From NCBI RefSeq assembly GCF_000765215.1, contig NZ_JPJE01000029.1:1-64000 (forward strand): DNA of 64,000 bases. The letters are read 5' to 3'. The notes beneath the pieces are model-generated. The model made no database searches. It was not told the origin of the DNA and saw nothing but the letters and a program-made list of their open reading frames with translations. Source of the DNA: Eubacterium sp. ER2. GTDB taxonomy: Bacteria > Bacillota > Clostridia > Lachnospirales > Lachnospiraceae. This document shows, piece by piece, positions 47,884 through 64,000 of the stretch; the stretch's first letter is position 1; each line of letters starts with the position of its first letter. The position numbers and the translations under genes were made by a program.

Positions 47884-48473
47884 ATGAATCTTACGACGGC
47901 ACTCAGAGATTACCTTGAATTTTGCAGATACCGGAAGGAATTGGATGTGAAGACGCTGAAAGCGTACCGGATCAACCTGCGGCAGATGGCAGAGTATCTG
48001 GACGGGCGTGAATGTACCCGGCAGAACCTGGAGAAATACGTAACGCACCTTCATAAGCAGTTCGGGAAAAAGACCGTTAAGCGGAAAATAGCCAGCATGA
48101 AGGCCTTCTTCAGTTACCTTGAAGAGGAGGAGCGGATTGAAAGAAATCCCTTTGAGAAGATCAAAGTGCGATTGCCAGCAGCAGCCATTTCTTTGTGAAC
48201 CGGAGAGGCAGGGCCATGTCCGAGCAGTCTATAAGAAATATGCTTCACAGCTATCAGGAAAAGGCCCATTTGCCGGGAAATATCACGCCGCACATGTTCC
48301 GACATTCAGTGGCTACCTATCTGCTGGAGGAGGATGTGGATATTGCCTATATCCAAAAGCTGCTGGGACACAGCTCCATTAAGACGACGCAGATCTATAT
48401 ACACGTGGCGTCCAAAAAGCAGGCGGAGCTTTTGAAGGAGAGGCATCCGAGAAATAAAATGAGTATCCGCTGA
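47884..48473 (+). pseudogene. Tyrosine recombinase with internal deletion
   Basis: The first part (47884-48198) encodes the N-terminal core-binding domain (LTTALRDYLEFCRYRKELDV ... NPFEKIKVRLP). The second part, in another frame from about 48183, encodes the C-terminal catalytic end (FFVNRRGRAMSEQSIRNML, TPHMFRHSVATYLL with the HxxR pair, QKLLGHSSIKTTQIYIHV with the Tyr nucleophile). About 130-150 residues between them, including the first catalytic arginine, are missing and the join shifts frame. It is a dead XerC/D-type integrase. Its presence marks an old integration between rlmD and the polysaccharide locus. Confidence 0.85.
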
Positions 48474-48672
48474 GCACAGATTGTCTCTGATAAGTGGAGA
48501 CACTGGCGGCAAGGTAAAATAACTGTAAAACTCAGGTGAAGTCTCATCATTTGGAAACAGATAAAAAATATCAATAACATAATGCCGCCTGCACAATCGC
48601 ATAAAAAAATCGTCTCCTACAGTTGGAAAAACAATGAAATTGTACAAAAAAATGGGATGTTTTGGCGGGGGA

Positions 48673-48701
48673 TTGAAAAAAATGAGGTAAACCATTATAA
48701 T
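48673..48701 (+). promoter_or_regulatory. Promoter of the small membrane protein gene
   Basis: TTGAAA (48673-48678), a 17-bp spacer and TATAAT (48696-48701) form a near-consensus promoter 40 nt before the ATG. Confidence 0.7.
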
Positions 48702-48740
48702 AGAAACAGTCTCTAAAGGGTAAAAAAGGAGAAGACGATT

Positions 48741-48935
48741 ATGAAACATGCTGGAACTGCTTTGAAAATGCTGGTGCTCTGCTGTTTAGTGCTGTGCAGC
48801 GCAGGTATTGTCATGTATATTGGGGCAGGGACTGTTGTGACAGAGACAGTAGATCCGCTCCGGGCGGTGATCGCTGCGGTGATTGCTCTGGCAGCCGGAT
48901 TGATTATTTTTTTCAAACGACACATTGTGAACTAG
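48741..48935 (+). CDS. Small two-helix membrane protein
   Basis: A 64-residue protein made almost entirely of two hydrophobic helices (about residues 9-29 and 41-58) with a short basic end KRHIVN. AAAAGGAGAAG precedes the ATG and a strong promoter lies upstream, so it is probably expressed. I do not recognise the family. It precedes the polysaccharide locus by 90 nt and may mark its boundary. Confidence 0.6.
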   Translation: MKHAGTALKMLVLCCLVLCSAGIVMYIGAGTVVTETVDPLRAVIAAVIALAAGLIIFFKRHIVN

Positions 48936-49027
48936 AATGAGAACTGACTGGCTGCAGGATGAGACAGATCAGTTTTTTTCACGTGACATGACGTGTCTGA
49001 TACTGAATGGAAAAAAGGAACAGGGAA

Positions 49028-50941
49028 ATGAGTGGAGAAAAACAGGGAAAACAATTAAAATGGATACATAAAGCGCTGATCCTAGCCGCCGCGGATGTGG
49101 CGATCATCCTGGCGTCCTATCTGGGAGCGCTTTTGCTGCGGTTTGATTTTGTGCTCTCCAGCATCCCGCCGGAGTATATCCAGGGCTATCTGTGGTCCAT
49201 GCCCTTCTGGGTCGCCGCAACGCTGGTCGTGTTTTACGGCTGCCGACTGTACCACAGTATCTGGAGCCTGGCCAGTGTGGCAGAGTTCAGAAGGATACTG
49301 GCAGCCTATGTCATATTGCTGGTGGTCTATGTGGCGGGCATGATCTTTATGGGGCTTCGCATGCCCAGATCCTACTATTTCATGGGATATATCATCAGCT
49401 TCTGCCTGACGACGGGGGTGCGCTTCTCCTACCGGATCCTGCGGATGTACGCGATCCGGGAGGACAATGCGGCAAACGCGGACAAGATTCATGACCGGGT
49501 TATGATCATCGGAGCCGGAAGCGCGGGTCAGGTTCTGATCAAGGAGCTGCTGAGCTCTGAGAAGACCCATGTGCAGGTGTGCTGTGTCATTGACGATAAC
49601 CCCAACAAGCTGGGCCGGTCGCTGGAGGGGATTCCCATCGTGGGAAACCGGTACGATATTGTGGAGATGGCGGAAAAATATAACATCAATCGCATTATCT
49701 ACGCCATTCCCGCAACAACAGGCAAAAACCGCAAGGATATCCTGAACATCTGCAAGGAGACAAAATGCCGGATGCAGACAGTGCCTGGCGTCTATCAGCT
49801 GGTAAACGGCGAGGTCAGCGTCAGCACGCTGCGCAATGTAGAGATCACAGATCTGCTGGGCCGCGCCCAGGTCCGGGTCAATAACGAAGAGATCTTTGCC
49901 GCTATTAAAGGTTTGAACGTACTAGTAACAGGTGGTGGAGGCTCTATTGGGTCAGAACTTTGCCGGCAGATCGCCCAGGCACAGCCCAGGAGGCTGATCA
50001 TCTTTGATATATATGAAAATAACGCCTATGAGATACAGCAGGAGCTGATCCGGAAATACGGGGACACGCTGGACCTGGTAGTGCTCATCGGCTCTGTCAG
50101 AAATACCAACCGGATCGGCTGGGTGATGGATAAATATAAACCCGATGTGGTGTTCCATGCGGCGGCACACAAGCATGTACCGCTGATGGAGGACAGCCCT
50201 AACGAGGCCATCAAGAACAATGTCCTTGGCACCTACAAGACAGCAAAGGCAGCAGCCAGGGCGGGGGTAAGAAAATTTGTCCTCATCTCTACTGACAAGG
50301 CTGTCAACCCCACCAACATCATGGGGGCGTCCAAGCGCCTCTGTGAGATGGTGGTGCAGATGATGAACCGGAAATGCCCGGATACAGATTTCGTGGCAGT
50401 CAGGTTCGGAAACGTACTGGGAAGCAACGGAAGCGTCATCCCGCTCTTTAAGAAACAGATTGCGGCGGGCGGACCGGTTACCGTTACTGATAAAAATATC
50501 ATCCGCTACTTTATGACCATTCCTGAGGCGGTCTCACTGGTGCTCCAGGCGTCCTACTACGCAAAGGGCGGTGAGATATTTGTCCTGGACATGGGGGCTC
50601 CTGTCCGGATCGACGACATGGCGCGAAATCTGATCCGCCTGTCAGGCTACGAGCCGGATGTGGACATCATGATCGAGTACACCGGCCTGCGTCCGGGTGA
50701 GAAGCTCTTTGAGGAGCTGCTCATGGACGAGGAAGGGCTGCAGGATACAGAAAATGAGCTGATCCACATTGGAAAGCCCATAGAGATGGATGATGAGTGG
50801 TTTGAGGTACAGCTCAAGAGGCTGGACCGGGAGAGCAAGATAGAAAACGGCCATATCAAAGAGCTGGTGGCAGAGATCGTGCCAACCTATCACCCAAAGC
50901 CCTCCGACCTGGGAGAACAGGAACCACAGCAGGCTTCATAG
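49028..50941 (+). CDS. Membrane-bound UDP-GlcNAc 4,6-dehydratase-like enzyme (CapD/PglF type)
   Basis: A protein of about 637 residues with four N-terminal membrane helices, a first Rossmann-like domain (RVMIIGAGSAGQVLIKELLS) and a second SDR domain (VTGGGGSIGSELCRQIAQ, VFHAAAHKHVPLMED, STDKAVNPTNIMGASKR, RPGEKLFEELLMDEEGL). The family makes UDP-4-keto-6-deoxy-HexNAc, the substrate for the aminotransferases encoded downstream. ATG 49028 after AAGGAACAGG is preferred to ATG 49007, which has no ribosome binding site. It is followed by a terminator before the loaP gene. Confidence 0.9.
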   Translation: MSGEKQGKQLKWIHKALILAAADVAIILASYLGALLLRFDFVLSSIPPEYIQGYLWSMPFWVAATLVVFYGCRLYHSIWSLASVAEFRRILAAYVILLVVYVAGMIFMGLRMPRSYYFMGYIISFCLTTGVRFSYRILRMYAIREDNAANADKIHDRVMIIGAGSAGQVLIKELLSSEKTHVQVCCVIDDNPNKLGRSLEGIPIVGNRYDIVEMAEKYNINRIIYAIPATTGKNRKDILNICKETKCRMQTVPGVYQLVNGEVSVSTLRNVEITDLLGRAQVRVNNEEIFAAIKGLNVLVTGGGGSIGSELCRQIAQAQPRRLIIFDIYENNAYEIQQELIRKYGDTLDLVVLIGSVRNTNRIGWVMDKYKPDVVFHAAAHKHVPLMEDSPNEAIKNNVLGTYKTAKAAARAGVRKFVLISTDKAVNPTNIMGASKRLCEMVVQMMNRKCPDTDFVAVRFGNVLGSNGSVIPLFKKQIAAGGPVTVTDKNIIRYFMTIPEAVSLVLQASYYAKGGEIFVLDMGAPVRIDDMARNLIRLSGYEPDVDIMIEYTGLRPGEKLFEELLMDEEGLQDTENELIHIGKPIEMDDEWFEVQLKRLDRESKIENGHIKELVAEIVPTYHPKPSDLGEQEPQQAS

Positions 50942-51016
50942 TTTGATATTTTCAGGATTCCAAAGGAAGTCAGATCGTCGCCTTGCCGCGTCTGGCTTCG
51001 TTGGATGATATAGTGT

Positions 51017-51070
51017 CTCCGCAGTTTCTGCCTTTTTTCGGGGCAGAAATGGCGGAGCCTGCTCTTTTTT
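51017..51070 (+). terminator. Terminator after the dehydratase gene
   Basis: CTCCGCAGTTTCTGCC (51017-51032) pairs with GGCAGAAATGGCGGAG (51042-51057) with two mismatches, followed shortly by CTCTTTTTT. Confidence 0.82.
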
Positions 51071-51141
51071 ACCTGTTTAACAGGAAATTTCATAAATGAT
51101 CATAAGGCAAGGGATAATTAAACAAGGAGAAATACCAGACT

Positions 51142-51648
51142 ATGTGGTACGTCATGCAGGTGCGCACAGGCACCGAAGAGAGTATCCGCATCCAGTGCCA
51201 GAGCAATATACCCGCCGGCGTGCTGGAGAGATGCTTTGTCCCTTACTATGAAGAGAGAAAACATATCCGGGGTACATGGATCACACAGAAGAAGGTCCTG
51301 TTTCCCGGGTATGTTTTTGTCGTTACAGACAAATTGGATCAGCTCTACGAGTCTCTGCGAACTGTCATCGGCCTCACAAAGCTGATCGGCACCGGCCGGG
51401 ATATCGTTCCCCTGACAGACCAGGAGAAGCACTTCCTCCTGGAGTTTGGCGGCGAGGAGCAGATGGTCGCCATGTCCGAGGGGATCATAGAGAATTCCAA
51501 GGTGCACGTCTACTCCGGGCCCCTCAAGGGCAAGGAGGGCTACATCCGGAAGATCGACCGGCACAAGCGCAAGGCCTGGCTGGAGATCGAGATGTTCGGC
51601 AGGCTGCAGAAGGTGCAGGTGGGATTGGAGATCGTGGTGAAGACGTAG
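51142..51648 (+). CDS. loaP: NusG-family processive antiterminator, LoaP type
   Basis: This 168-residue NusG paralogue begins MWYVMQVRTGTEESIRIQCQ (NGN domain), has KKVLFPGYVFVVTDKLDQLY and ends with a KOW domain (VYSGPLKGKEGYIRKIDRHK). LoaP proteins bind RNA hairpins in the leader of long biosynthetic operons and let RNA polymerase pass terminators. Here it sits directly upstream of a polysaccharide operon of at least 11 kb, with an intrinsic terminator in between (51676-51700). AAGGAG lies 14 nt before the ATG, somewhat far. Confidence 0.85.
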   Translation: MWYVMQVRTGTEESIRIQCQSNIPAGVLERCFVPYYEERKHIRGTWITQKKVLFPGYVFVVTDKLDQLYESLRTVIGLTKLIGTGRDIVPLTDQEKHFLLEFGGEEQMVAMSEGIIENSKVHVYSGPLKGKEGYIRKIDRHKRKAWLEIEMFGRLQKVQVGLEIVVKT

Positions 51649-51675
51649 GGATAAGAAGTAATATGAGAAGAAATG

Positions 51676-51700
51676 AGAGCCTTTAGGGGCTCTTATTTTT
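51676..51700 (+). terminator. Terminator between loaP and the polysaccharide operon
   Basis: AGAGCC (51676-51681) pairs with GGCTCT (51688-51693) around TTTAGG, followed by TATTTTT. It is placed where LoaP-type antitermination would decide expression of the downstream genes. Confidence 0.75.
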
Positions 51701-51760
51701 GTGGGGAAAATGCATAGCCCATATATGAATTTATATTAAAAAGGTGAGAGGAACAAAACA

Positions 51761-53035
51761 ATGGCATTTCAAACAGAGAGCACAGGGATCAGTCCATTTG
51801 AAAAGAAAATATGGCTTTCCAGCCCGACCATGCACGGTCCGGAGCTGGAATATGTGACAGAGGCGTATAAGACAAACTGGATGTCTACGGTGGGCGAGAA
51901 TATAAATGAGGTCGAGAGACTTGCATGTGAAAAAATCGGATGTGGATATGCAGTCGGGCTCTCTGCCGGAACCGCCGCCCTACATATGGCGGTAAAGCTT
52001 GCAGGGGTAAAGGCGGGAGACAGGGTGTTCTGTTCGGATATGACATTTGACGCCACAGTGAACCCGGTTGCATATGAAGGAGGTATCCCTGTGTTCATTG
52101 ACACAGAATATGATACATGGAATATGGATCCCGCAGCTTTGGAGAAGGCGTTTGCGCTTTATCCGGATGTGAAGGTTGTAGTGATTGCTCATCTCTATGG
52201 AACACCGGGAAAAATTGATGAGTTGAAGGAAATATGCGACAGACACGGAGCGGTGATCATTGAAGACGCGGCTGAGTCGCTGGGAGCGGAATATAAAGGG
52301 AAACAGACCGGGAGCTTCGGGCGGTATAACTGTATTTCCTTCAACGGCAACAAAATTATTACAGGCTCTTCCGGCGGAATGTTATTGACAGATGACAAAG
52401 AAGCGGCAGACAAAGTGAGAAAGTGGTCCACTCAGTCCCGGGAAAACGCGCCCTGGTATCAGCACGAGGAGCTGGGCTATAACTACAGGATGAGTAATGT
52501 GATTGCCGGGGTTGTACGAGGGCAGTTCCCCTATCTGGAGGAGCATATCGAGCAGAAAAAAGCCATCTATGAGAGATACCGGGAGGGCTTTAAAGACCTT
52601 CCGGTTGTGATGAATCCCTATGACGCAGAGAACAGCGAGCCTAACTTCTGGCTCAGCTGCATGCTGATCAAGCCGGAGGGAATGTGCCGGCAGGTAAGAG
52701 GAGAGCAGGAGGCAATCTATATAAGCGAACCGGGGAAATCCTGTCCGACAGAGATTCTGGAAACACTTGCAGAATATAATGCCGAGGGAAGACCTATCTG
52801 GAAGCCAATGCATATGCAGCCGATTTACCGGATGAATGGATTTGTCACAAGGGAGGGTAATGGAAGAGCAGTGACCAATGCGTATATTGCCGGCGGTGCT
52901 CTTGGAAAGGACGGCAGGCCGCTGGACGTGGGAATGGATATCTTCCAGAGAGGGCTGTGTCTGCCCAGTGACAATAAGATGACGGCGGCGGAGCAGGAGC
53001 AAGTGATTGAGATTGTGAAGAGATGTTTTGAGTAA
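51761..53035 (+). CDS. DegT/DnrJ/EryC1 family sugar aminotransferase, copy A
   Basis: A 424-residue PLP enzyme of the PglE type: LSSPTMHGPELEYVTEAYKT, NWMSTVGENINEVE, VGLSAGTAALHMAVKLA, EDAAESLGAEYKGKQTGSFG, and the PLP lysine in SFNGNKIITGSSGGM. It would transfer an amino group to the 4-keto sugar nucleotide made by the dehydratase. It is closely similar along its whole length to copy B at 53709, showing a duplication; copy A has more GC-rich codons. GAGAGG precedes the ATG. Confidence 0.93.
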   Translation: MAFQTESTGISPFEKKIWLSSPTMHGPELEYVTEAYKTNWMSTVGENINEVERLACEKIGCGYAVGLSAGTAALHMAVKLAGVKAGDRVFCSDMTFDATVNPVAYEGGIPVFIDTEYDTWNMDPAALEKAFALYPDVKVVVIAHLYGTPGKIDELKEICDRHGAVIIEDAAESLGAEYKGKQTGSFGRYNCISFNGNKIITGSSGGMLLTDDKEAADKVRKWSTQSRENAPWYQHEELGYNYRMSNVIAGVVRGQFPYLEEHIEQKKAIYERYREGFKDLPVVMNPYDAENSEPNFWLSCMLIKPEGMCRQVRGEQEAIYISEPGKSCPTEILETLAEYNAEGRPIWKPMHMQPIYRMNGFVTREGNGRAVTNAYIAGGALGKDGRPLDVGMDIFQRGLCLPSDNKMTAAEQEQVIEIVKRCFE

Positions 53036-53065
53036 AATGAAGTATTTGGAAGAGAGTTTTTAAAA

Positions 53066-53467
53066 ATGGGGAATAGGCATAAACCATACGGACCATATGA
53101 AAAATACATAAAACGTCCAATTGATTTTTTGTGTGCTCTTGCAGCTATTGTGGTTTTCAGCTGGCTTTATATTATTGTGGCTGTCCTTGTAAGGCTGAAA
53201 TTGGGAAGTCCGGTTCTCTTTACGCAGGAGCGCCCGGGAAAAGACGGGAAAATATTCAAATTATATAAGTTTAGAACAATGACAGATGAAAAAGATAAAA
53301 ATGGGAAGCTCCTGCCGGATGAGGTTAGGCTGACTAAATTTGGAAGACTGCTCAGAGCTACAAGCCTGGATGAACTTCCTGAAGCTTTTAACATATTGAA
53401 GGGGGATAGAGGTATAATAGGGACAACCAAGAGAAACATTGATTTTTCAAGCGTTGTCACGGCATAA
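53066..53467 (+). pseudogene. Truncated sugar-phosphate transferase (copy A)
   Basis: The first 115 residues match the intact transferase at 54992 (start HKPYGPYEKYIKRPIDFLCA, membrane segment, QERPGKDGKIFKLYKFRTMT, TSLDELPEAFNILKGD). After LKGD the sequence becomes unrelated (RGIIGTTKRNIDFSSVVTA) and stops. The missing part contains the GPRP and RPGLSGLAQVNGRN motifs needed for catalysis, so the product cannot be an active transferase. The break marks a recombination join. Confidence 0.88.
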
Positions 53468-53708
53468 GTCAGCCCCGTTCTTAGGTTTTGTGCGAATTGG
53501 GTAGAATAGCGGTTGAGAACGGTGAAAAGTCAAAATGGCTTCTTGATTGCTTATTTTGACCCAATCTGATAAGCGTACAAAATTTGATAAGGAGGTTGAC
53601 TTAGCCGAGGCATGGTAGCTTTACCATTCTCGGCTAATTGTCGTGTTATAGCTCAGATATGAACCTGTTAATTTAGATGATATTGAATGCGAAAGGTAGA
53701 AAAAAGAG
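53468..53708. repeat. Recombination junction with three inverted repeats
   Basis: CCGTTCT/AGAACGG (53475-53481, 53516-53522), GTCAAAAT/ATTTTGAC (53529-53536, 53553-53560), and a strong hairpin TTAGCCGAG-gc-ATGGTA / TACCAT-t-CTCGGCTAA (53601-53617, 53622-53637) fill this non-coding gap. It lies exactly between the truncated copy A module and copy B, where codon style also changes. Confidence 0.7.
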
Positions 53709-54977
53709 ATGTTGATTAATCCGTTTAAACACAAAATTTGGCTGTCATCGCCCACGATGCACGGTGACGAATTGAAGTACGTTACCGAAGCGTATGAAAC
53801 AAACTGGATGTCCACGGTAGGAAAGAATATTAACGAAGTAGAGCGATTGATTGCTGAAAGAATAGGTGTCCGATATGCAGTCGCATTATCGGCAGGAACG
53901 GCATCTCTCCATCTTGCCATGAAGCTTGCCGGAGAAGCCATGTATGGTCAGCCGGAAATTGGAAAAGGTGCACTGAGCAATAAGAAAATTTTCTGTTCCG
54001 ATGTCACTTTCGATGCCACGGTGAACCCGGTTGTCTATGAGGGTGGTATCCCTGTTTTCATTGATACCGAGCGTGACACCTGGAATATGGACCCGGTGGC
54101 GCTGGAAAAGGCATTTGAGATTTACCCGGATGTCAAGGTGATTGTAGTAGCTCATCTGTATGGAACACCGGGCAAGATTGATGAAATTAAGAAGATAGCA
54201 ACTGCCCACGGAGCTGTGATCGTTGAAGATGCAGCGGAGTCCCTGGGTGCTACATATAAAGGAAAAGAAACTGGCAGCGTTGGCGATTACGGCTGCATCA
54301 GTTTCAATGGAAATAAGATCATTACCGGTTCGTCCGGCGGGATGTTCCTCACTGATTCTAAAGCGGATGCCGAGAAGGTACGCAAGTGGTCAACCCAAAG
54401 CCGAGAAGCAGCGCCGTGGTATCAGCATGAGGAGCTGGGCTATAACTACCGCATGAGCAATGTGATTGCCGGAGTTGTGCGTGGGCAGATTCCATATTTG
54501 GAAGAACACATTGCGCAGAAGAAAGACATCTATATGCGCTACAAGGAAGGCTTGAAAGACCTTCCGGTGCAGATGAATCCTTACGATGTGAAGAACAGCG
54601 AACCTAATTTCTGGCTGAGCTGTATGTTGATCGACAAGGATGCCATGTGCCAGCAGGTTCGTGGGGAACAGAAAGCACTCTACATCAGCGAACCGGGCAA
54701 GAGTTGCCCGACAGAGATTCTGGAAACTTTGGCGAAGTATAATGCGGAAGGTCGTCCGATCTGGAAGCCGATGCACGAACAGCCAATCTTCCGAATGAAT
54801 CCGTTTATCACAATAGAAGGCAATGGCAGAGCCAAGACCAATGCCTATATCGAAGGTGGTAGTGAGGATGTGGGCATGGATATATTCGAGAGAGGTCTGT
54901 GCCTGCCAAGTGATAACAAGATGACTGCTGAGGAGCAGAATGTTGTAATTGAAATTATCAGAAGATGTTTTGAGTAA
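53709..54977 (+). CDS. DegT/DnrJ/EryC1 family sugar aminotransferase, copy B
   Basis: This 422-residue aminotransferase has the same motifs as copy A (KIWLSSPTMHGDELKYVTEA, NWMSTVGKNINEVERLIAE, EDAAESLGATYKGKETGSVG, SFNGNKIITGSSGGM with the PLP lysine). It has a short insert after KLAGEAMYGQPEIGKGALSN and lacks a few residues near its end. It should make a 4-amino-4,6-dideoxy-HexNAc nucleotide. AAAGG precedes the ATG. It begins a tightly packed, more AT-rich gene series that was probably acquired with its partner transferase. Confidence 0.93.
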   Translation: MLINPFKHKIWLSSPTMHGDELKYVTEAYETNWMSTVGKNINEVERLIAERIGVRYAVALSAGTASLHLAMKLAGEAMYGQPEIGKGALSNKKIFCSDVTFDATVNPVVYEGGIPVFIDTERDTWNMDPVALEKAFEIYPDVKVIVVAHLYGTPGKIDEIKKIATAHGAVIVEDAAESLGATYKGKETGSVGDYGCISFNGNKIITGSSGGMFLTDSKADAEKVRKWSTQSREAAPWYQHEELGYNYRMSNVIAGVVRGQIPYLEEHIAQKKDIYMRYKEGLKDLPVQMNPYDVKNSEPNFWLSCMLIDKDAMCQQVRGEQKALYISEPGKSCPTEILETLAKYNAEGRPIWKPMHEQPIFRMNPFITIEGNGRAKTNAYIEGGSEDVGMDIFERGLCLPSDNKMTAEEQNVVIEIIRRCFE

Positions 54978-54991
54978 AAGAGGGAAAGTAT

Positions 54992-55645
54992 ATGAACAAT
55001 CAGCATAAACCATACGGGCCATATGAGAAATATTTCAAGAGAGTGCTTGATGTATTTTGTGGTCTTGCGGCGTTGCTTGTATTCTGGTGGCTTTATATTA
55101 TCGTAGCGGTTTTAGTCAGAATTAAATTGGGTAGCCCGGTGTTGTTTAAGCAGGAACGTCCGGGGAAAAACGAGGAGATATTTAAGCTATATAAATTCCG
55201 TACTATGACGGATACACGAGACGAAAACGGAAATCTTTTGCCGGATGAGGTTCGTCTAACGAAATTTGGAAGAGCATTGAGGACAACCAGTCTGGATGAA
55301 TTGCCTGAAGTTTTTAATATTTTGAAGGGCGAGATGAGCCTGGTGGGACCCCGCCCGCTGACGATACAATACTTGCCCTATTACAGCGAAGAAGAACGAC
55401 ACCGCCATGATGTCAGACCAGGGCTTAGTGGTTTAGCTCAGGTAAATGGTAGAAACTTTATTGATTGGGATCATCGGCTCGCATTTGACGTTCAATATGT
55501 AAAGAAAATCACATTTATTGGCGATTTGCGCATTATTCTTCAAACGGCTCTAAAGTTCGTTAAGAAAGAGGACATTGCGGTAGATACCAATAAAGTCGAA
55601 CCTAATTTCGCTGAGGAAAGACGCTTAAAAATGCAAGTAAAGTAA
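54992..55645 (+). CDS. Undecaprenyl-phosphate sugar-phosphate transferase (PglC-like)
   Basis: This 217-residue small monotopic phosphoglycosyl transferase starts HKPYGPYEKYFKRVLDVFCG, has one membrane segment and the motifs GSPVLFKQERPGK, KFRTMTDTRDE, TTSLDELPEVFNILKGEMSL, VGPRPL and RPGLSGLAQVNGRN. It starts the repeat unit by moving a sugar phosphate, probably the 4-amino-dideoxy-HexNAc, onto undecaprenyl phosphate at the membrane. It starts 14 nt after the aminotransferase stop, and the pair is the intact form of the broken copy A module. Confidence 0.95.
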   Translation: MNNQHKPYGPYEKYFKRVLDVFCGLAALLVFWWLYIIVAVLVRIKLGSPVLFKQERPGKNEEIFKLYKFRTMTDTRDENGNLLPDEVRLTKFGRALRTTSLDELPEVFNILKGEMSLVGPRPLTIQYLPYYSEEERHRHDVRPGLSGLAQVNGRNFIDWDHRLAFDVQYVKKITFIGDLRIILQTALKFVKKEDIAVDTNKVEPNFAEERRLKMQVK

Positions 55646-55656
55646 GGGAGATATTT

Positions 55657-56619
55657 ATGAACATTTTGATACTGAGTGCGGGAACTCGAAATAAAATTGT
55701 CCAATATTTTGTAAAGACTTTGAATGGAACCGGGAAAGTCATTGCGACAGATATGAGTAATTTAGCTCCCGCTATCTATGAAGCTGATAAATACTATATT
55801 GTTCCGAAGATGACTGCACCTGAGTATCTGGATGTAGTGTTGGATATTTGTAAGAAGGAAGAAATTACTGGTGTGCTTTCACTGATTGACCCGGAGCTTT
55901 CCCTTCTGGCAGAAAATAGAGAAAAATTTGAAGCCATAGGTACGACTGTAATTGGTTCGTCTTATGCGCTTTGTGAAATGTCTTTGGACAAGTTCCAGAT
56001 GTATAGATGGTTGGAAACACACAGATACCGGTGCGCCAAATCCTATATGGATAAGGAAGCTTTCTTTGCGGATGTTGACGCTGGGGTGATTACCTATCCT
56101 GTGTTTGTAAAACCGGCAAGAGGCAGTGCCAGCATCTCTATCTCCAAGGTTTATGACCGGGAGACGGTTGAATTGTTGTTTGCCCATGAGGATGGCCTGA
56201 TGATTCAGGAGTTCCTGGATGGACAGGAAATCGGTGCGGATGTGTATATTGATATGGTGTCTCACGAAGTGGTATCCATCTTCACAAAGAAAAAGTTGAA
56301 AATGCGTGCCGGTGAGACAGATAAGGCAGTTTCTTTTAAGGATGAAAAGTTGTTCGCTCTGATTGAACGGTTTGTCAAGGATGCAGGCTACAATGGTCAG
56401 ATCGACATCGACATTTTTGACGTGAATGACGAGTATTACATTTCTGAGGTCAATCCCCGCTTTGGCGGTGGGTATCCTCATGCATTTGAGAGCGGCGCAG
56501 ATCATATGAAGCTTATCATTAATAATCTTGATGGAAAGGTGAATGAGTGTTCCATTGGAGAGTATAACGATGACATATATATGATGAAGTATAATGAGGT
56601 CATGTTTAAGAGGGGATAA
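55657..56619 (+). CDS. ATP-grasp domain protein
   Basis: A 320-residue ATP-grasp enzyme with an N-terminal nucleotide-fold part (MNILILSAGTRNKIVQYFVK), a central segment (YPVFVKPARGSASISISKVY, MIQEFLDGQEIGADVYIDM) and metal/ATP ligands in IDIDIFDVNDEYYISEVNPR FGGG. These enzymes join a carboxylate to an amine using ATP. Set between the sugar-phosphate transferase and a glycosyltransferase, it may attach an amino acid to the amino sugar or a uronic acid. Substrate and product are not known. It starts 11 nt after the transferase stop. Confidence 0.85.
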   Translation: MNILILSAGTRNKIVQYFVKTLNGTGKVIATDMSNLAPAIYEADKYYIVPKMTAPEYLDVVLDICKKEEITGVLSLIDPELSLLAENREKFEAIGTTVIGSSYALCEMSLDKFQMYRWLETHRYRCAKSYMDKEAFFADVDAGVITYPVFVKPARGSASISISKVYDRETVELLFAHEDGLMIQEFLDGQEIGADVYIDMVSHEVVSIFTKKKLKMRAGETDKAVSFKDEKLFALIERFVKDAGYNGQIDIDIFDVNDEYYISEVNPRFGGGYPHAFESGADHMKLIINNLDGKVNECSIGEYNDDIYMMKYNEVMFKRG

Positions 56620-56622
56620 GTG

Positions 56623-57828
56623 ATGAATATTCTATTTCTTTCGATAGGAGACATACCGAGTATAAAACATAGAGAAATATATCCGGATTTAATGAGAGAG
56701 TTTATCAAAAATAATCATAACGTTTATGTGATCTGCTCCAGAGAGAAGCGAAATAATTTAGCCACCGAATTTGTAGAGGAAGATGGAGCAAAACTTGTTA
56801 AAGTAAAGATTGGGAACATTACAAAAACAAATTTAATTGAGAAAGGTGTATCAACTCTTCTTGTAAGTATTCAATATAAGTTAGCTATAAAAAAATTTTT
56901 CCCTGATGTACAGTTTGATTTGATCATGTACTCAACTCCTCCTATTACTTTAGTTGATTGTATTGAATATGTGAAGAAAAGGGATGACGCTAAAACATAT
57001 TTGCTTTTAAAGGACATTTTTCCGCAAAATGCAGTGGATCTTGGTATGTTTACTCAAACAGGACTTAAATCTGCTATATATAAATATTTTAGAAATAAAG
57101 AGTCTAAGATATACAGAATATCTGATCATATTGGATGTATGAGTCAAGCTAACGTTGAATATGTGCTTAAGCATAATTCCGAATTGGATGAAAATATTGT
57201 TGAAGTATGTCCAAACAGTGTCGATGTTGTTGATATGAGTGTTGATGCAAAAACACGTGAGAACATTAGAAAAAAATATGATATTCCGACTAACAAAAAG
57301 ATATTAATTTATGGAGGAAATCTTGGAAAACCTCAAGGAATTGATTTTTTGATAGAGTGCTTAAAAAGCCAATATAATAGGGATGATGTGTATTTTTTGA
57401 TTGTCGGTGACGGTACTGAGTTCGGAAAACTCGAGAGTTATATGAAAGCTGAAAAGCCGATGAATGTAAAATTGATGAAAAGACTTCCAAAGGATGACTA
57501 TGACACCATGGTAGCTGCATGTGATGTTGGAATGATTTTTCTGGATTATAGATTCACAATTCCTAATTTTCCATCACGACTTTTGGCATATATGCAAGCA
57601 AAAATCCCGGTATTGGCATGTACTGATCCTAATACAGATATTGGAAAGGTGATTACTGAAGGTGGCTTTGGTTGGTGGTGTGAGAGTAATTCTATTCAGG
57701 AATTTACGAAAATAGTAGATTGCATATGTTCAGCAGACCTTAAAGCCTTAGGAGATAATGCATATCGGGTATTGAATGAAAAGTATTCTGTTAGCGAGAG
57801 CTACAACACTATAGTAAACCATTTCTAA
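56623..57828 (+). CDS. Glycosyltransferase family 4 (WbuB-like)
   Basis: A 401-residue GT-B glycosyltransferase with the retaining-type signature KILIYGGNLGKPQGIDFLIE, VGDGTEFGKLESYM and a C-terminal ANFPSRLLAYMQAKIPVLAC-like region (IPNFPSRLLAYMQAKIPVLA). AGGGGA precedes ATG 56623; GTG 56620 directly before it is less likely. The gene is markedly AT-rich. It would add a sugar to the lipid-linked chain at the cytoplasmic face of the membrane. Confidence 0.9.
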   Translation: MNILFLSIGDIPSIKHREIYPDLMREFIKNNHNVYVICSREKRNNLATEFVEEDGAKLVKVKIGNITKTNLIEKGVSTLLVSIQYKLAIKKFFPDVQFDLIMYSTPPITLVDCIEYVKKRDDAKTYLLLKDIFPQNAVDLGMFTQTGLKSAIYKYFRNKESKIYRISDHIGCMSQANVEYVLKHNSELDENIVEVCPNSVDVVDMSVDAKTRENIRKKYDIPTNKKILIYGGNLGKPQGIDFLIECLKSQYNRDDVYFLIVGDGTEFGKLESYMKAEKPMNVKLMKRLPKDDYDTMVAACDVGMIFLDYRFTIPNFPSRLLAYMQAKIPVLACTDPNTDIGKVITEGGFGWWCESNSIQEFTKIVDCICSADLKALGDNAYRVLNEKYSVSESYNTIVNHF

Positions 57829-57883
57829 TAAGAGCAGCGCTTGACGATAAACAGTATTGCAAAATAAAAGGAAGGTAAAAACA

Positions 57884-59206
57884 ATGTCTTTGTATGAAAA
57901 TTTAATTTCGGGAAAAGAGAAGCTTTCATTGATCGGTTTAGGCTATGTCGGAATGCCCCTTGCTGTCGCCTTTGCCGAGCACAACATTAAGGTGATCGGG
58001 TTTGACTTGAACAGCAAAAAAATCGAATTGTATAAATCCGGCATCGATCCTACACACGAAGTGGGGGACGAGGCAATCAAAGCATCGACAGTGGAGTTCA
58101 CATGCGATGAGGCTAAGCTGAAAGAAGCAAAATTCCATATCGTAGCTGTACCGACGCCTGTCAATGTTGACCATACTCCTGACTTGGTTCCGGTAGAAGG
58201 TGCATCAACGATTGTGGGACGCAATCTGACCAAAGGCTCCGTTGTGGTATACGAATCTACAGTATATCCCGGTGTGACAGAAGATGTATGTGTTCCGATT
58301 CTGGAAAAAGAGTCCGGTTTAAAGTGTGGAGTTGATTTCAAAATCGGATATTCTCCGGAACGAATCAATCCCGGTGATAAGGTACATCGTTTGGAAACTA
58401 TCAAAAAGATCGTTTCCGGTATGGATGAAGAGACTTGCGATATCATTTCCGATGTTTATAATATTGTCATTAAGGCTGGGACCCATAAGGTCAGCAGTAT
58501 CAAAACTGCAGAAGCAGTAAAAGTGGTGGAAAATAGTCAGAGAGACATTAACATTGCATTTATGAATGAATTGGCAATGGTTTTCGATCGAATGGGAATT
58601 GATACTGCTGAAGTGGTTGATGGTATGAATACGAAATGGAATGCGCTTGGTTTTCGTCCTGGTCTGGTTGGCGGTCATTGCATTGGTGTTGACCCCTACT
58701 ATTTCACCTATGAAGCAGAAAAGCTTGGGTATCATAGCCAGATTATTCTCAACGGGCGTATTGTCAATGACGGCATGGGTGCCTTTGTTGCCGATGCAAC
58801 GATCAAGCAGCTTGTACTTGCAGGCAAAGCGCCTCGCAGTTGCAAGGTTGTTGTTTTGGGAATCACATTCAAGGAGAATTGCCCTGACACCAGAAATTCC
58901 AAGGTAAACGATGTTCTCAAAAAGTTACAGGAATATGGTATTGAGCCGCTTGTTATTGACCCTGTGGCCTGCGCGGAAGATGCAGAGCGCGAATATGGAG
59001 TAAAACTGGTCAATTTTGATGATGTGCATGATGCGGATTGTGTCATCATGGCTGTTGCGCACAATGAATTTAAAGCTATGGGAATAGAAGGCGTTGCCAA
59101 GCTTTTCGGCAGCGTGGATGTAAACAGCAAGGTACTTATTGATGTAAAGAGCTTGTTTGATAGAAAAAAAGTTGACCAGGCAGGATATCGTTATTGGCGG
59201 CTGTAA
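57884..59206 (+). CDS. UDP-sugar 6-dehydrogenase (TviB/WbpO/WbpA type)
   Basis: A protein of about 440 residues with the NAD loop LIGLGYVGMPLAVAFAEHNI, the catalytic lysine region KVVENSQRDINIAFMNELAM and the catalytic cysteine in GLVGGHCIGVDPYYFTY. The GGHCIGVDPYY form is typical of enzymes oxidising UDP-HexNAc to the uronic acid rather than of UDP-glucose dehydrogenases. It would supply a charged uronic acid to the polysaccharide. ATG 57884 after GGAAGGTAAAA is preferred to 57857. Confidence 0.9.
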   Translation: MSLYENLISGKEKLSLIGLGYVGMPLAVAFAEHNIKVIGFDLNSKKIELYKSGIDPTHEVGDEAIKASTVEFTCDEAKLKEAKFHIVAVPTPVNVDHTPDLVPVEGASTIVGRNLTKGSVVVYESTVYPGVTEDVCVPILEKESGLKCGVDFKIGYSPERINPGDKVHRLETIKKIVSGMDEETCDIISDVYNIVIKAGTHKVSSIKTAEAVKVVENSQRDINIAFMNELAMVFDRMGIDTAEVVDGMNTKWNALGFRPGLVGGHCIGVDPYYFTYEAEKLGYHSQIILNGRIVNDGMGAFVADATIKQLVLAGKAPRSCKVVVLGITFKENCPDTRNSKVNDVLKKLQEYGIEPLVIDPVACAEDAEREYGVKLVNFDDVHDADCVIMAVAHNEFKAMGIEGVAKLFGSVDVNSKVLIDVKSLFDRKKVDQAGYRYWRL

Positions 59207-59235
59207 TACTATAAAAATAAATATAAGGAGCGGCA

Positions 59236-60120
59236 ATGATAGAAGAAATTCGAATTTGTATTACACAGGCTTTTATTAAAATATTCGGTAAGAATACTCG
59301 GATTAGTGATAGACAGTATAATCAGATACTTTATCGCCTGCGTACGGGGAAAAAAGCCAACTTGGATTGCCCTAAGACCTTTAACGAGCATATACTTGCG
59401 CGAAAGGTTTTTATGAACGAGGACGATCTTACACGGTATACCGATAAATATGAAGTCAGATTTTACGTCGGAAAGGTAATCGGGTCACAATTTCTGGTTA
59501 AAAATTTTGGCGTTTGGGAAAATCCAGAAGAAATCTCTTTTGACAAACTTCCACAACAATATGTCTTGAAAGCAACGCATGGATCAGGATGGAATATCAT
59601 TGTGCGCAATGGTCAAAAAGTTGATGCAATGGAAATCATTCCAAAACTGAAGGGTTTTCTGAAGGAAAATTATTACACATATGGTCGTGAAAAAAACTAT
59701 CGTTTAATCAAGCCGAGAATTGTCTGCGAAGAATTCATTGAGGGCGTTTCCGGCAGAAGTATTATTGATTTCAAGGTTTTCTGCTTTGGCGGCTGCGCAA
59801 AATTTTATTCGGTTACATACTTTGAAAACGGAAAACAGCACTTCAATATCTTTGACCTGTCAGACGGATGCCTGGAGATAAGGGATCGGTATGAAAAGGT
59901 GAACTGCGCCTGTCTGCCCCCGAATATTGACGAGATCATCCATCTGGCACAGAAGCTTGCGAAGCCGTTCGACTTTGTCAGAGTTGATTTTTATATCGCA
60001 AAGCAGGGAATTTTCTTTTCTGAGCTTACATTCCATTCAGGCGGAGGGATACGCCCTATTAAGCCGATGGAATTTGATTATAAGTTGGGAAGGTATTTTG
60101 ATACGATAGGGGGTTCATAA
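59236..60120 (+). CDS. TupA-like ATP-grasp protein
   Basis: A 294-residue protein of the TupA-like ATP-grasp group: LRTGKKANLDCPKTFNEHIL, ARKVFMNEDDLTRYTDKYEV, KATHGSGWNIIVRNG, EEFIEGVSGRSIIDFKVFCF, and KPFDFVRVDFYIAKQGIFFS ELTFHSGGG. TupA was linked to teichuronopeptide synthesis in alkaliphilic Bacillus, where a peptide is attached to a uronic-acid polymer. Its place next to the uronic-acid dehydrogenase gene and 2.6 kb after a second ATP-grasp gene supports amide decoration of the polymer. The next gene starts immediately after its stop. Confidence 0.88.
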   Translation: MIEEIRICITQAFIKIFGKNTRISDRQYNQILYRLRTGKKANLDCPKTFNEHILARKVFMNEDDLTRYTDKYEVRFYVGKVIGSQFLVKNFGVWENPEEISFDKLPQQYVLKATHGSGWNIIVRNGQKVDAMEIIPKLKGFLKENYYTYGREKNYRLIKPRIVCEEFIEGVSGRSIIDFKVFCFGGCAKFYSVTYFENGKQHFNIFDLSDGCLEIRDRYEKVNCACLPPNIDEIIHLAQKLAKPFDFVRVDFYIAKQGIFFSELTFHSGGGIRPIKPMEFDYKLGRYFDTIGGS

Positions 60121-61236
60121 ATGAGGCTGCTGCTACTTACACATTGCTTTTATCCATCTCAGAAAAGAGGCGGTCCCACTGTCAGTATGACGAATATGGC
60201 AAAGTTTGCTGCCGAATTTATGGATGTTTCGGTGGTGACAATCGGATATGATTCCGACGGAACCAAATATAAAGGGATTAATGAAGGGAAGAACTCCATT
60301 TTCGGATGTGATGTATACTATCTGCAAAACAATAGGATGGCAGACTTCTCTGAAATGATTCAAAACATAAATCCCGATGTGATATACATCAGCAGTTTGT
60401 TTAGCTGGCAATACTGTGTACCGGCTCTGCGAATTGCAAAAAAGAAAAAAATCAGAACGATTCTTGCACCAAGAGGAGAGTTGATGCCTTCGGCATTCAG
60501 CATGAAGCATTTTAGAAAAATACTTTATGTGAACTTTTTGAAATGCTTGGGATTATTTCGCAATGTTGAAATTCATGCAACTTCGAGTGATGAATGCAAT
60601 GAGGTTAAGAAGTTTCTTCCTCATGTAAAGATTTTCACTGTGCAGAATTTGCCTATGGTTTCTGCGCTTGTTTCTCAATACATAAAAAAGTCAGTGGGAC
60701 AACTTGAGGTTGCGTTTGTCGGAAGAATCCATCCAATTAAGAATCTGGATGTTGCTTTGAGCATATTAAAGAATATTCGCGGAAATGTTACCATGTATGT
60801 TTACGGTTCATGTGAAGTTCCAGAGTATTATAGTAAATGTAAGGAGATTGCGGATTCTTTACCAGAGAATATTCAGGTTCGTTTTGAAGGCAATGTGCCG
60901 CATGACAGCATACCGCAGATTCTTTCAGGTTATCATGTCTTGCTGTCGCCAACGCAGAGCGAGAATTTTGGACAAGCCATCGTTGAAATGCTGATGCAGC
61001 ACCGACCGGTCGTTATCAGTACAAATACGCCGTGGCGTGAACTAGCGCCTAATCGTGCAGGATATGATATTGCGTTAGATCAGTTAGAAACGTTTGCCGA
61101 GGCAATCAATGGTTTTGTGGATATGACTGACGCAGAATTCAGAGAATGGTGTGATGGTGCAGGAGCATATATCTCAGAAAGATTGAAATTAGGCGAGCTT
61201 GTTGTACAGTATCGTCAAATGTTGGTAGGAGAATAA
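60121..61236 (+). CDS. Glycosyltransferase family 4
   Basis: A 371-residue GT-B enzyme: LLLLTHCFYPSQKRGGPTVS at the N-terminus, VAFVGRIHPIKNLDVALSIL, RFEGNVPHDSIPQILSGYHV, LLSPTQSENFGQAIVEMLMQ. It is a retaining glycosyltransferase that builds the repeat unit. The ATG directly follows the upstream TAA. The next gene starts one base after its stop. Confidence 0.93.
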   Translation: MRLLLLTHCFYPSQKRGGPTVSMTNMAKFAAEFMDVSVVTIGYDSDGTKYKGINEGKNSIFGCDVYYLQNNRMADFSEMIQNINPDVIYISSLFSWQYCVPALRIAKKKKIRTILAPRGELMPSAFSMKHFRKILYVNFLKCLGLFRNVEIHATSSDECNEVKKFLPHVKIFTVQNLPMVSALVSQYIKKSVGQLEVAFVGRIHPIKNLDVALSILKNIRGNVTMYVYGSCEVPEYYSKCKEIADSLPENIQVRFEGNVPHDSIPQILSGYHVLLSPTQSENFGQAIVEMLMQHRPVVISTNTPWRELAPNRAGYDIALDQLETFAEAINGFVDMTDAEFREWCDGAGAYISERLKLGELVVQYRQMLVGE

Positions 61237-62451
61237 ATGATGAAACTGCTTTATATAGGAACGGTCAGTGAAAGTCAGGAATATGAGCGGATCGTTAGAG
61301 AATCCAAGGTAAAACCGTCAGTTGCACCGCAGGCATTTGAAACGGCATTTTTGAACGGAGTAAAAGCAAACGGAGTAAACGATGTTGAGTGTTTTGCCTT
61401 CCCTATGATTGCGTCTTTTCCAGGCAGTAAACTGCTGTATTGGAAAAAAAAGAAGCAAACACTAGAATGCGGTTTCTCTGCAACATGGATTCCATCCATC
61501 AATCTGCCGGTTCTCAAGATGATCAGTCAGGCATTTTCTTCTAAAAAAATGATTAGATCATGGCTGAAAAAACAGGAAAACCCGGAGGATGCCTGCATAT
61601 TGATGTATTCCATCTATGCGCCGATTGCAAAGAATATCCTTCGTTTTGGAAAGAAATATCATTGTAAAACAGTGGTATTTGTTCCGGATTTGCCGGAACA
61701 TATGTATGCTGCCAAGCGGGGATTGCAGGGAATCGGCGCCAGATACTATTATCACTTAGTCAAGAAGCTTCAATCTGAGTTTGACGGATATATCTATCTG
61801 ACTGAAGAAATGAAAAACAGAATTTCTGCTGAGAAGCCATATATTGTTGTAGAGGGTCTGGCAGATGAGAGCCTGTTTGCTGCACCGACTAAGTTATCTG
61901 ACTCTGCAAACTTGCCGATAATTATGTATGCCGGTACACTAAGCAAAAGATATGGGATTGCCGAGCTTGTGGAAGGGTTTCGGCAAACGAATCTTGATGT
62001 ACAACTGCATATTTATGGCTATGGTGATTTTGTATCGGAATTGGAAAAACACATTCAAGCGGATGCTCGCATTCATTATAAAGGTAGAGTCAGCAGAGAG
62101 GTTATTTTGGAAAAAGAGAGAGCAGCAACACTGCTTGTGAACGTCAGGAATCCCAAAGATGATTTTACAGCATATTCCTTTCCCTCAAAAACAATAGAGT
62201 ATATGTCATCAGGAACGCCGTTGCTTACTTCTCGTTTGCCGGGGATACCGCAGGCATATTTTGACTTCTGCTATTCTATTTCCGGGAATGATGTTGCCGA
62301 GATTAAATCTGCACTCGAAACAATTATGGGGTATTCGGATGAGGTTCGCCGAGACATGGGGCAGCGCGCAAGAGATTACATATACGAGAATAAGACGGCA
62401 TTCAAACAGGCGGAGAGAGTACTGAATTTCATAGACCATTTCGAGGATTGA
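61237..62451 (+). CDS. Glycosyltransferase family 4
   Basis: A 404-residue glycosyltransferase with GT-B features (PIIMYAGTLSKRYGIAELVE, LHIYGYGDFVSELEKHIQAD, RIHYKGRVSREVIL, TAYSFPSKTIEYMSSGTPLL). Two ATGs (61237, 61240) follow GGAG; either could start it. It is the third transferase of the locus and is directly coupled to the preceding one. Confidence 0.9.
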   Translation: MMKLLYIGTVSESQEYERIVRESKVKPSVAPQAFETAFLNGVKANGVNDVECFAFPMIASFPGSKLLYWKKKKQTLECGFSATWIPSINLPVLKMISQAFSSKKMIRSWLKKQENPEDACILMYSIYAPIAKNILRFGKKYHCKTVVFVPDLPEHMYAAKRGLQGIGARYYYHLVKKLQSEFDGYIYLTEEMKNRISAEKPYIVVEGLADESLFAAPTKLSDSANLPIIMYAGTLSKRYGIAELVEGFRQTNLDVQLHIYGYGDFVSELEKHIQADARIHYKGRVSREVILEKERAATLLVNVRNPKDDFTAYSFPSKTIEYMSSGTPLLTSRLPGIPQAYFDFCYSISGNDVAEIKSALETIMGYSDEVRRDMGQRARDYIYENKTAFKQAERVLNFIDHFED

Positions 62452-62525
62452 TCAGAGTGTAATATCGCTTTTATAATCCGAAGCGGAGAACGACGCATTT
62501 TTATGCAGTGAAGGGAGAAAGACTG

Positions 62526-63746
62526 ATGAAATATAAAAAACAAAAGTGGATTTGTATAGCGATAGGTCTTTTTCTATGTTTCCCATCGCTAAACTCTGCA
62601 ATTGGCAGCATCATCAAGTTTTTTTTGGGTGCTCAGCTTAAGTTGGGAACATATGTAATTTATACGATATACTTTCTTGTGATGCTGTATGCGTTATATA
62701 AAAATATTCGCAGGATTTCGGTAAGCACCTTTGTAATCACAGTATTTATGATTATTTCATTTATACTGTCAAGTGCTCTGAATAATGTTACGCAATATGT
62801 ATGGACTTCTTTCGGCGATATCATGGGAAATCCGATGTATTTGTTCCTGTTCTATGGATTTTTGGGACTGTACTTAGCGCAATATTTGAAAGATATGCAC
62901 TTACTTTGTTTTTATTTGGATAAATTCACTCTAGCAACGATTATGTTGGCACTGGTTCAATACATTATCGCGCTGCAAAGCGATTTATCTCCGCAGTATA
63001 TGGTTTTCTCGTACAACCTTCTGTTCCCAGCGACGTATTTTTCTTTGAGATGTATGTCAAATTTTAGCCTTAAAAGACTGCTTGGAACAGCAATCGGAGC
63101 TGGATTGATATTGATTGCCGGATGTCGCGGTGCACTTGTTTGTTATATGGTCGCGATTCTTTTATATGTCATTTTTTCAGGCGGTGTTTTCAGGATACGG
63201 AAGGTGGTATCGATTTTATTGTTGCTCCTTGCGATTGTTGTGATCAGTATTTTCTGGGATGAGATTTTAGATGTAGCGATAAAACTGCTTGAATCGATGA
63301 ATATAGACAGTCGAACGCTCACAATGCTGTCAGAGCAGTCCTTTTTTGATGACAGCGGACGCTCTGACATTCAGAAAACAATCATGGATAACATTGGCTT
63401 TTTGCCCAAAGGGCTCTACTATGATCGCATTGTGGCAGATGGCAGCTATGCACACAATTTGTTCTTGGAGCTTGCAATACAGTATGGCATTCTCCTCGGA
63501 GGGGCGATTATAGTATGGTTGTGCTATCATGTGGTACGAAGTGCATTTGTGGCTAGAAAGAATCCGACAGCAAGCATTGTTTTGTATAGCCTGATTGCAA
63601 GCGGACTTATGAGACTGATGTTCTCTAGCAGTTATCTTTTGAACGAACCGGGGCTTTGGTTGCTTATCGGTTTGATATTAAATTTCTATAATGCAAAATA
63701 CGCAAATTCGAGTGAACAGTCAGGAGAAGTATGTTTCAAAAAGTAA
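62526..63746 (+). CDS. Wzy-like polysaccharide polymerase
   Basis: A protein of about 406 residues with around ten membrane helices and a longer outside loop near residues 270-310 (LTMLSEQSFFDDSGRSDIQK, then ...YAHNLFLELAIQYGILLGG). HNLFLELAIQYGI before a helix is typical of the O-antigen ligase/polymerase fold. It joins flipped repeat units outside the membrane. ATG 62526 after AAGGGAGAAAG is preferred to GTG 62508. No Wzx flippase is seen within the window; it should lie beyond the right end. Confidence 0.85.
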   Translation: MKYKKQKWICIAIGLFLCFPSLNSAIGSIIKFFLGAQLKLGTYVIYTIYFLVMLYALYKNIRRISVSTFVITVFMIISFILSSALNNVTQYVWTSFGDIMGNPMYLFLFYGFLGLYLAQYLKDMHLLCFYLDKFTLATIMLALVQYIIALQSDLSPQYMVFSYNLLFPATYFSLRCMSNFSLKRLLGTAIGAGLILIAGCRGALVCYMVAILLYVIFSGGVFRIRKVVSILLLLLAIVVISIFWDEILDVAIKLLESMNIDSRTLTMLSEQSFFDDSGRSDIQKTIMDNIGFLPKGLYYDRIVADGSYAHNLFLELAIQYGILLGGAIIVWLCYHVVRSAFVARKNPTASIVLYSLIASGLMRLMFSSSYLLNEPGLWLLIGLILNFYNAKYANSSEQSGEVCFKK

Positions 63747-64000
63747 AAAGAGTGCTGAAATTGGCATATTATTGGAAAAAATATCATAAATTAGGGGTTC
63801 AATGGTCTGAAGGAGTTGAACTGGGGGGATTTTCAACTATCTTTGAAGGTTACAACAGGTTGGGGCGTAATACTTCGTTCACAGGCAGTATCGGTCGATA
63901 CAGCTATATGGGAGCTGATTGTAAAATCAACGCCGATATTGGCCGCTATTGCTCCATTGCTTCGGATGTATGTACCGTCAACGGGCGTCACCCTACAACA
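63731..64000 (+). CDS. Hexapeptide-repeat acyltransferase, cut by the window end
   Basis: An open frame begins at ATG 63731 after AGGAG, overlaps the polymerase gene by 16 nt and runs off the window after 90 codons. The protein (GVQWSEGVELGGFSTIFEGY, LGRNTSFTGSIGRYSYMGAD, INADIGRYCSIASDVCTVNG, RHPTT) shows the left-handed beta-helix repeats and the NGRHPTT end typical of CatB/Vat-like acetyltransferases. It may O- or N-acetylate the polysaccharide. Confidence 0.88.
   Translation, partial: MFQKVKRVLKLAYYWKKYHKLGVQWSEGVELGGFSTIFEGYNRLGRNTSFTGSIGRYSYMGADCKINADIGRYCSIASDVCTVNGRHPTT

Follow-up and report, generated by a model that had tools for sequence, protein, structure and literature searches.

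Two described pathways come closest to the locus analysed here. One is the PglF-PglE-PglD-PglC pathway of Campylobacter jejuni, which leads to UDP-diNAcBac. The other is neisserial: in the available text of PMC11130364 PglB is described as an acetyltransferase/phosphoglycosyl transferase (PGT) and PglB2 as an ATP-grasp/PGT protein making GATDH, the N-terminal PGT domain being common to both, and the accessible part of PMC6959607 proposes that the C-terminal domain transfers a glyceroyl group. The DNA studied here, a 64,000-nucleotide stretch of contig NZ_JPJE01000029.1 of Eubacterium sp. ER2 (referred to below as the window), comes from a Lachnospiraceae gut bacterium and carries a surface polysaccharide locus of the Wzy type, with genes for two ATP-grasp ligases. 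We think it rather probable that the first of these ligases, ATPG, N-acylates a 4-amino sugar with an amino or hydroxy acid before the PGT of the locus (PGT2) loads it, thus taking the place of PglD.

The locus is present at 49007-64000 and extends past the end of the window; the contig is 76,627 bases long. Gene calls and family matches agree with the preliminary description as to the locus and the positions of both ATP-grasp genes, with the detail that the start coordinate given there falls 21 bases within the dehydratase gene. All genes named in that description are on the + strand and matched the expected families in profile searches. The genes central to the argument are the following (aa, amino acids).

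49007-50941, + strand: CapD/FlaA1/PglF-type membrane UDP-HexNAc 4,6-dehydratase, 644 aa (PF02719, 406 bits)
53709-54977, + strand: AT2, DegT/PglE-LegC-like sugar 4-aminotransferase (PF01041, 250 bits)
54992-55645, + strand: PGT2, PglC-like monotopic phosphoglycosyl transferase, 217 aa, predicted chain initiator (PF02397, 196.8 bits, full length)
55657-56619, + strand: ATPG, PRK12767.1-5 ATP-grasp ligase, proposed 4-amino sugar N-acylase (NF009406, 527 bits)
57857-59206, + strand: UGD, TviB/WbpA-like UDP-HexNAc 6-dehydrogenase for a uronic acid (best equivalog TviB, 438.7 bits, below the cut-off of 592)
59236-60120, + strand: TupA-like ATP-grasp ligase (PF14305, 146.3 bits, cut-off 25)

The resemblance to the PglB2 pathway lies in a PGT that adjoins (in the window, 11 bases separate PGT2 from the start of ATPG) or, in a relative (L100, see below), is fused to an ATP-grasp protein of the PRK12767 group, in the company of a PglE-type aminotransferase and a PglF-type dehydratase, the ATP-grasp protein standing in for the PglD acetyltransferase domain. 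In contrast to PglB2, the window ligase belongs to NF009406 and not to NF009405, is encoded by a separate gene, lies in a polysaccharide and not a protein-glycan locus, and has relatives with supply cassettes. With the C. jejuni pathway the window shares the families of its 4,6-dehydratase, aminotransferase and PGT, but it has an ATP-grasp ligase instead of an adjoining PglD. The best solved relatives of AT2 were 1o61 and 4ztc, which we take to be C. jejuni PglE. The preliminary description recognised no characterised pathway with this set of genes; it overlooked PglB2 and, for the second ligase, Cj1438C as precedents, whereas for the full gene combination of the locus we, too, know of no matching pathway. 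The locus consists of ordinary parts but looks like a variant of the PglB2 arrangement for polysaccharides, and its relatives carry what look like exchangeable genes for acid supply.

The ligase and its gene neighbourhoods

ATPG cleared the curated cut-off of NF009406 (PRK12767.1-5) by a wide interval (527.3 bits against 271). Its AlphaFold model had a mean predicted local distance difference test (pLDDT) score of 93, and among the matches listed the nearest solved structure was 2pn1, an Exiguobacterium protein named 'carbamoylphosphate synthase large subunit' and 44-48% identical (Z 38.5, root mean square deviation (rmsd) 1.9 over 290 residues). Next came, with Z about 25-26, biotin carboxylases, PurK and PylC, an amino acid ligase. 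In the 81 ligases introduced below, 111 positions were at least 97% conserved, including K112, K152, E185, D250, D252, E264 and N266, which by position presumably fit an intact ATP-grasp site.

To collect relatives, 84,980 species genomes were searched with an alignment of four ligases, no other gene being part of the query. Of 319 confirmed loci the best 80 were retained, each with flanks of up to 8 kb, and the window brought the number to 81 (stretches from relatives are numbered with L). The 80 loci came mostly from metagenome-assembled genomes, some on short contigs, and in three the ligase was preceded by at most one gene. Neighbouring genes were clustered by single linkage at 28% identity and 60% coverage. 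A PGT gene was found in 75 loci, which with one PGT-ligase fusion makes 76/81, and a DegT aminotransferase (AT) in 67. The loci without a separate PGT gene were L042, L067, L071, L105, L108 and the fusion locus L100, some of them cut by contig ends. A relative of the 4,6-dehydratase occurred in 29 loci and a relative of UGD, as distinct from less similar uronate dehydrogenases, in 10 (within the flanks of up to 8 kb on either side); the other neighbours were GT_A (19 loci), TupA (17), a second ATP-grasp protein (8) and LoaP (6). Within uninterrupted runs of co-directional genes, the PGT lay 5' of the ligase in 63/81 loci, the AT in 57/81 and both in 49/81; in 11 loci the PGT was immediately 5', with gaps of -80 to +18 bases. 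The fusion (L100:3720-5426) is a single natural frame of 568 aa, in which a PGT part 54.6% identical to PGT2 precedes a ligase part 69.6% identical to ATPG. The order CapD-AT-PGT-ATP-grasp was also seen on a Priestia plasmid, and PGT-ATP-grasp...AT-CapD in Phocaeicola. When fusions were sought in Pseudomonadota, a ligase match at 1e-15 was obtained in 6/398 genomes (one being the starting genome), none with a fusion-length frame.

Two observations on these loci stand apart. Two more ATP-grasp families, not closely related to ATPG, adjoin the PGT or the ligase in 6 and 8 loci (L045 10316-11470 and L080 8997-10271). L112 and L117 are near-identical ligase loci (end branches 0.04 and 0.006) from horse-faeces bins labelled Alphaproteobacteria and Fibrobacter, and represent either a recent transfer or mis-binned contigs.

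As had been noted before, no PglD-type N-acetyltransferase lies by the aminotransferases: none was found in the locus, which was scanned up to 74.6 kb (contig end 76627). Among the 81 ligase loci near-full-length PglD-type matches occurred in three (L114, L046 and L091), shorter matches to other hexapeptide proteins being commoner. This scarcity fits a ligase that occupies the place of PglD.

In 55 of the 81 loci a supply cassette lay just 5' of the ligase. It was of the PALP type in 31 loci, consisted of a class I aminotransferase and/or a 2-hydroxyacid dehydrogenase in 14 (13 loci with each gene) and was a LysA-like decarboxylase in 10. The three types never shared a locus, and none of 200,000 random draws was as exclusive, a figure that is not a strict probability as the loci are related by descent. 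PALP (31/31), 2-hydroxyacid dehydrogenase (12/13) and LysA-like decarboxylase (10/10) genes were found within three genes upstream of the ligase, and a PGT preceded them in 27, 11 and 7 loci, respectively. The closest named models of the PALP proteins were D-cysteate sulfo-lyase and D-cysteine desulfhydrase, both below cut-off. Judged from family chemistry, the transaminase and the 2-hydroxyacid dehydrogenase would form a 2-hydroxy acid from an amino acid, a product reminiscent of the glycerate in GATDH. It seems that the cassettes adjoining the ligase in relatives make the acid that is attached.

Neisserial loci were included for comparison. Genome G170 was taken as Neisseria on the basis of 299 forward hits of the uptake-sequence hairpin (at most 2 in the other 397 genomes) and of a 413-aa PglB-type protein, seen at L149 of the same genus, which consists of a PGT and a PglD_N domain and shares 88.9% identity with a named N. 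gonorrhoeae record. In this genus a PRK12767-group ATP-grasp protein directly followed a PGT or was fused to it in 25/46 genomes, the fusion being found in one (G464; L138). The PGT adjoining the ATP-grasp gene in L143 was 85% identical to the same N. gonorrhoeae record over 199 residues. Since the neisserial PGT is found either with an ATP-grasp protein or fused to a PglD domain, the two are alternatives there. The neisserial ATP-grasp proteins were 26-30% identical to ATPG, and as judged from sequence ATPG belongs to a sister subfamily of the ATP-grasp part of PglB2 (about 27% identical), not to that subfamily itself.

Proposed role of the ligase and competing explanations

The genes with their families, their linkage, the fusion and the exclusiveness of the cassettes were observed directly; for the reaction, the order of the steps and the substrate we infer the following scheme. 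CapD and AT2 (or AT1, its relative in the same locus) would produce a UDP-2-acetamido-4-amino-trideoxyhexose. ATPG would then join the carboxyl group of a small acid, an amino acid or a hydroxy acid, to the 4-amino group at the expense of ATP, a step that would stand at the position of PglD-type acetyltransferases in other pathways. PGT2 would put the acylated sugar phosphate onto undecaprenyl phosphate and thereby start the chain. The acid would be provided by the neighbouring cassette in relatives and by general metabolism in the window. An amino acid in this role would keep a free amino group, which together with the uronic acids could still give a zwitterionic polymer.

Several observations weigh against this scheme. 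No activity on record was found for any NF009406 protein, and a supply gene was absent from 26/81 loci, the window included. The fusion locus L100 had no aminotransferase in the 13.4 kb examined. The neisserial ATP-grasp proteins scored best with NF009405 (about 380 bits) and stayed below the cut-off of NF009406 (174-185 bits), and by BLAST score the PRK12767.1-3 group (L037, L133, L134) was somewhat closer to ATPG than were the neisserial ligases. A PseH-like GNAT was present in 30/81 loci, and could itself acylate the 4-amino group, ATPG having another target. The ligase tree tracked the cassette type weakly (34 changes against 40.4 after shuffling, 1/200 as low; 5 of the 81 rows had no label), with the decarboxylase group clustered (6 against 9.5) and the PALP and GNAT-only groups not. 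As to the other features of these groups, L133 and L134 adjoin DegT aminotransferases, as does L132 (NF009406), and the GNAT accompanied PALP in 18 loci and the hydroxyacid set in 5, was alone in 7 and never occurred with the decarboxylase. The window has neither GNAT nor cassette, and a search of the source genome, made without a positive control, found no PseH-like GNAT relative. A ligase tree ordered by cassette type was not borne out, so the acid of the window cannot be predicted from the cassettes; the rows nearest to the window are of mixed type.

The preliminary description had offered a free 4-amino group, which with the uronic acid would make the polymer zwitterionic, and, alternatively, capping of this group or amidation of the uronic acid by an ATP-grasp ligase. 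Free 4-amino sugars are known in zwitterionic capsules. PSA of Bacteroides fragilis is called zwitterionic in the accessible text of PMC12355684, and the lack of an acetyltransferase adjoining the aminotransferases, together with the negative GNAT search, would also suit a free amine, ATPG then acting elsewhere. This explanation is nevertheless unlikely in view of a dedicated ligase that follows the PGT so closely in the window, occurs together with PGT and AT in the majority of the 81 loci and is fused to the PGT in one. For amidation of the uronic acid carboxyl by ATPG it can be said that the uronate dehydrogenase gene is two genes downstream; set against the frequencies of PGT (76/81) and AT (67/81), the 10/81 of UGD relatives, counted within the limits given above, make it very unlikely. 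These frequencies and the PGT-ligase fusion favour capping of the 4-amino group over both uronate amidation and a free amine, and so, for ATPG, capping, for which PglB2 is a precedent, is the part of the earlier proposal that gained support.

Acetylation in trans, with ATPG modifying a different site, has also to be weighed. PglD-type proteins are encoded elsewhere in the source genome, on contig C38 next to a PGT gene and a broken DegT gene, and on C2 as a fusion with a kinase-like domain. Both lie below the cut-off of the NeuD/PglD family and in other loci, and PglD-type genes are as rare in the ligase loci as reported above; that the C38 enzyme acetylates the 4-amino group of the window's sugar appears quite improbable. 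In a wider and more speculative version of N-acylation by ATPG, gut Clostridia would exchange N-acyl groups in a modular way, one highly conserved, broadly specific ligase keeping its position by the aminotransferase and the chain-initiating PGT while cassettes for different amino or hydroxy acids are swapped beside it, and the window would use a housekeeping amino acid whose free alpha-amino group, with two uronic acids, would render the polymer zwitterionic; we regard this extension as doubtful.

If N-acylation by ATPG is correct, the 'carbamoyl phosphate synthase-like' ATP-grasp proteins, which form a large group in gut Clostridia, would gain a function, the neisserial GATDH chemistry would be extended to polysaccharides, and the exclusive cassettes would yield testable predictions of the acid attached in each strain. 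Both the N-acyl groups of the first sugar and charge balance with uronic acids bear on the recognition of commensal polysaccharides by the immune system, phages and glycosidases. Among the matches listed, open-licence PMC literature contained no paper on ATPG-type loci; the Neisseria review turned up.

The TupA-like ligase and the uronic acid

The second ATP-grasp gene starts 29 bases 3' of UGD. The model of its product had a pLDDT of 91.4, and its structural matches were ATP-grasp ligases of the Ddl/LysX/ArgX-type fold, RimK among them (best Z 13.5, rmsd 4.0 over 213 residues, among the matches listed).

According to the available portion of PMC11800379, the TupA-like ATP-grasp protein Cj1438C forms an amide between glucuronate and either serinol phosphate or ethanolamine phosphate, and the accessible part of PMC13276843 ascribes the same activity to its HS:19 homologue, HS19.11C. 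Like these proteins at the level of family and fold, the window protein is a TupA-like ATP-grasp protein in a capsule-type locus with a uronic acid; unlike them, it is free-standing and not fused to a GT2 domain, and no serinol phosphate genes were seen. By analogy, it may amidate a HexNAcA or ManNAcA residue with an amine, a tentative assignment that draws on the Pfam family shared with Cj1438C and on the proximity to UGD. In a test of gene co-occurrence covering the genomes of 50 of the 80 loci, a UGD relative was present in 6/14 genomes with TupA in the locus and in 9/36 without, so that a tie of TupA to uronate dehydrogenase did not reach significance (p = 0.30). Of the four nearest TupA relatives (43-49% identical), two came from genomes without a UGD match at 1e-40 (L073 and L082) and two from genomes with one (L084 and L089). 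TupA and UGD were found together within the stretches only in L084 and the window. For the TupA-like protein the earlier suggestion of uronate amidation has a biochemical analogue, whereas co-occurrence lends it no significant support.

Setting of the locus and duplicated genes

The remaining genes of the locus within the window are listed here.

51142-51648, + strand: LoaP-family transcription antiterminator (NF033641, 179 bits, cut-off 125)
51761-53035, + strand: AT1, DegT/PglE-LegC-like sugar 4-aminotransferase (PF01041, 273 bits)
53066-53467, + strand: PGT1, truncated PglC-like transferase, 133 aa, likely pseudogene (partial match to PGT2)
56620-57828, + strand: GT_A, GT4 glycosyltransferase (PF00534, 61.5 bits)
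60121-61236, + strand: GT_B, GT4 glycosyltransferase (PF13692, 55 bits)
61237-62451, + strand: GT_C, GT4 glycosyltransferase (PF00534, 41 bits)
62508-63746, + strand: Wzy-like polymerase (PF04932, 29.5 bits, slightly below the cut-off of 31.7)
63731-64000, continuing to 64393, + strand: CatB/Vat-like hexapeptide acyltransferase (PF00132 and NF000490 on the full gene)

Beyond the 3' end of the window follow, in this order, genes for a GT4 glycosyltransferase, a flippase, a pyruvyl transferase, a UDP-ManNAc-dehydrogenase-like protein, WecB (499 bits, cut-off 210), FnlA-like and WbcJ-like proteins, both below their own equivalog cut-offs, and a second WecB-family protein. The last three presumably resemble an L-FucNAc set.

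The aminotransferase/PGT pair is present twice, as AT1/PGT1 and AT2/PGT2. AT1 was 80% identical to AT2 in aa sequence, 87% to its counterpart in L064 and 86% to that of Claveliimonas bilis (L113), a species that genome kinship places in the same genus as the source. PGT1 matched PGT2 at 72% over the latter's residues 1-127 and breaks off at about residue 119-127 of the 217; its remainder was sought in 53041-53720 and not found. A recent duplication was considered and rejected, since the pairs are only 71% identical in DNA, which makes them old relatives. When the genome was queried with AT2 at 0.001, AT1 and AT2 were the sole matches; the broken DegT piece on C38 escaped this query and was detected by Pfam. 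That contig (L119; G000 contig C38) carries a second polysaccharide locus with a NusG/LoaP-like gene, the broken DegT aminotransferase, the PglD_N-domain protein and a PGT-GT2 fusion. In the ligase locus of a relative (L034), pieces of an aminotransferase 3' end were seen amid unrelated genes at 15335-15547 and 17502-17588, resembling the AT1/PGT1 remnant, and recombination may take place at the AT/PGT junction.

An Rfam scan of 44000-64000 gave no match at gathering score. Strong hairpins were noticed at 51671-51698, 3' of loaP, and at 53601-53637, 5' of AT2 (z about -2.9 and -2.8, respectively), and are candidates for LoaP or terminator elements. The G+C content is 0.54-0.58 across most of 16-42 kb and falls to 0.37-0.46 across much of 52-64 kb. 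Immediately 5' of the locus a tyrosine recombinase (47842-48473) is divided over two overlapping frames, an N-terminal SAM-like and a catalytic one, and is probably broken. The low-G+C stretch that precedes the locus (43712-47395) contains RhuM, KilA-N and a weak Fic-family match, and is likely a mobile or defence-type island.

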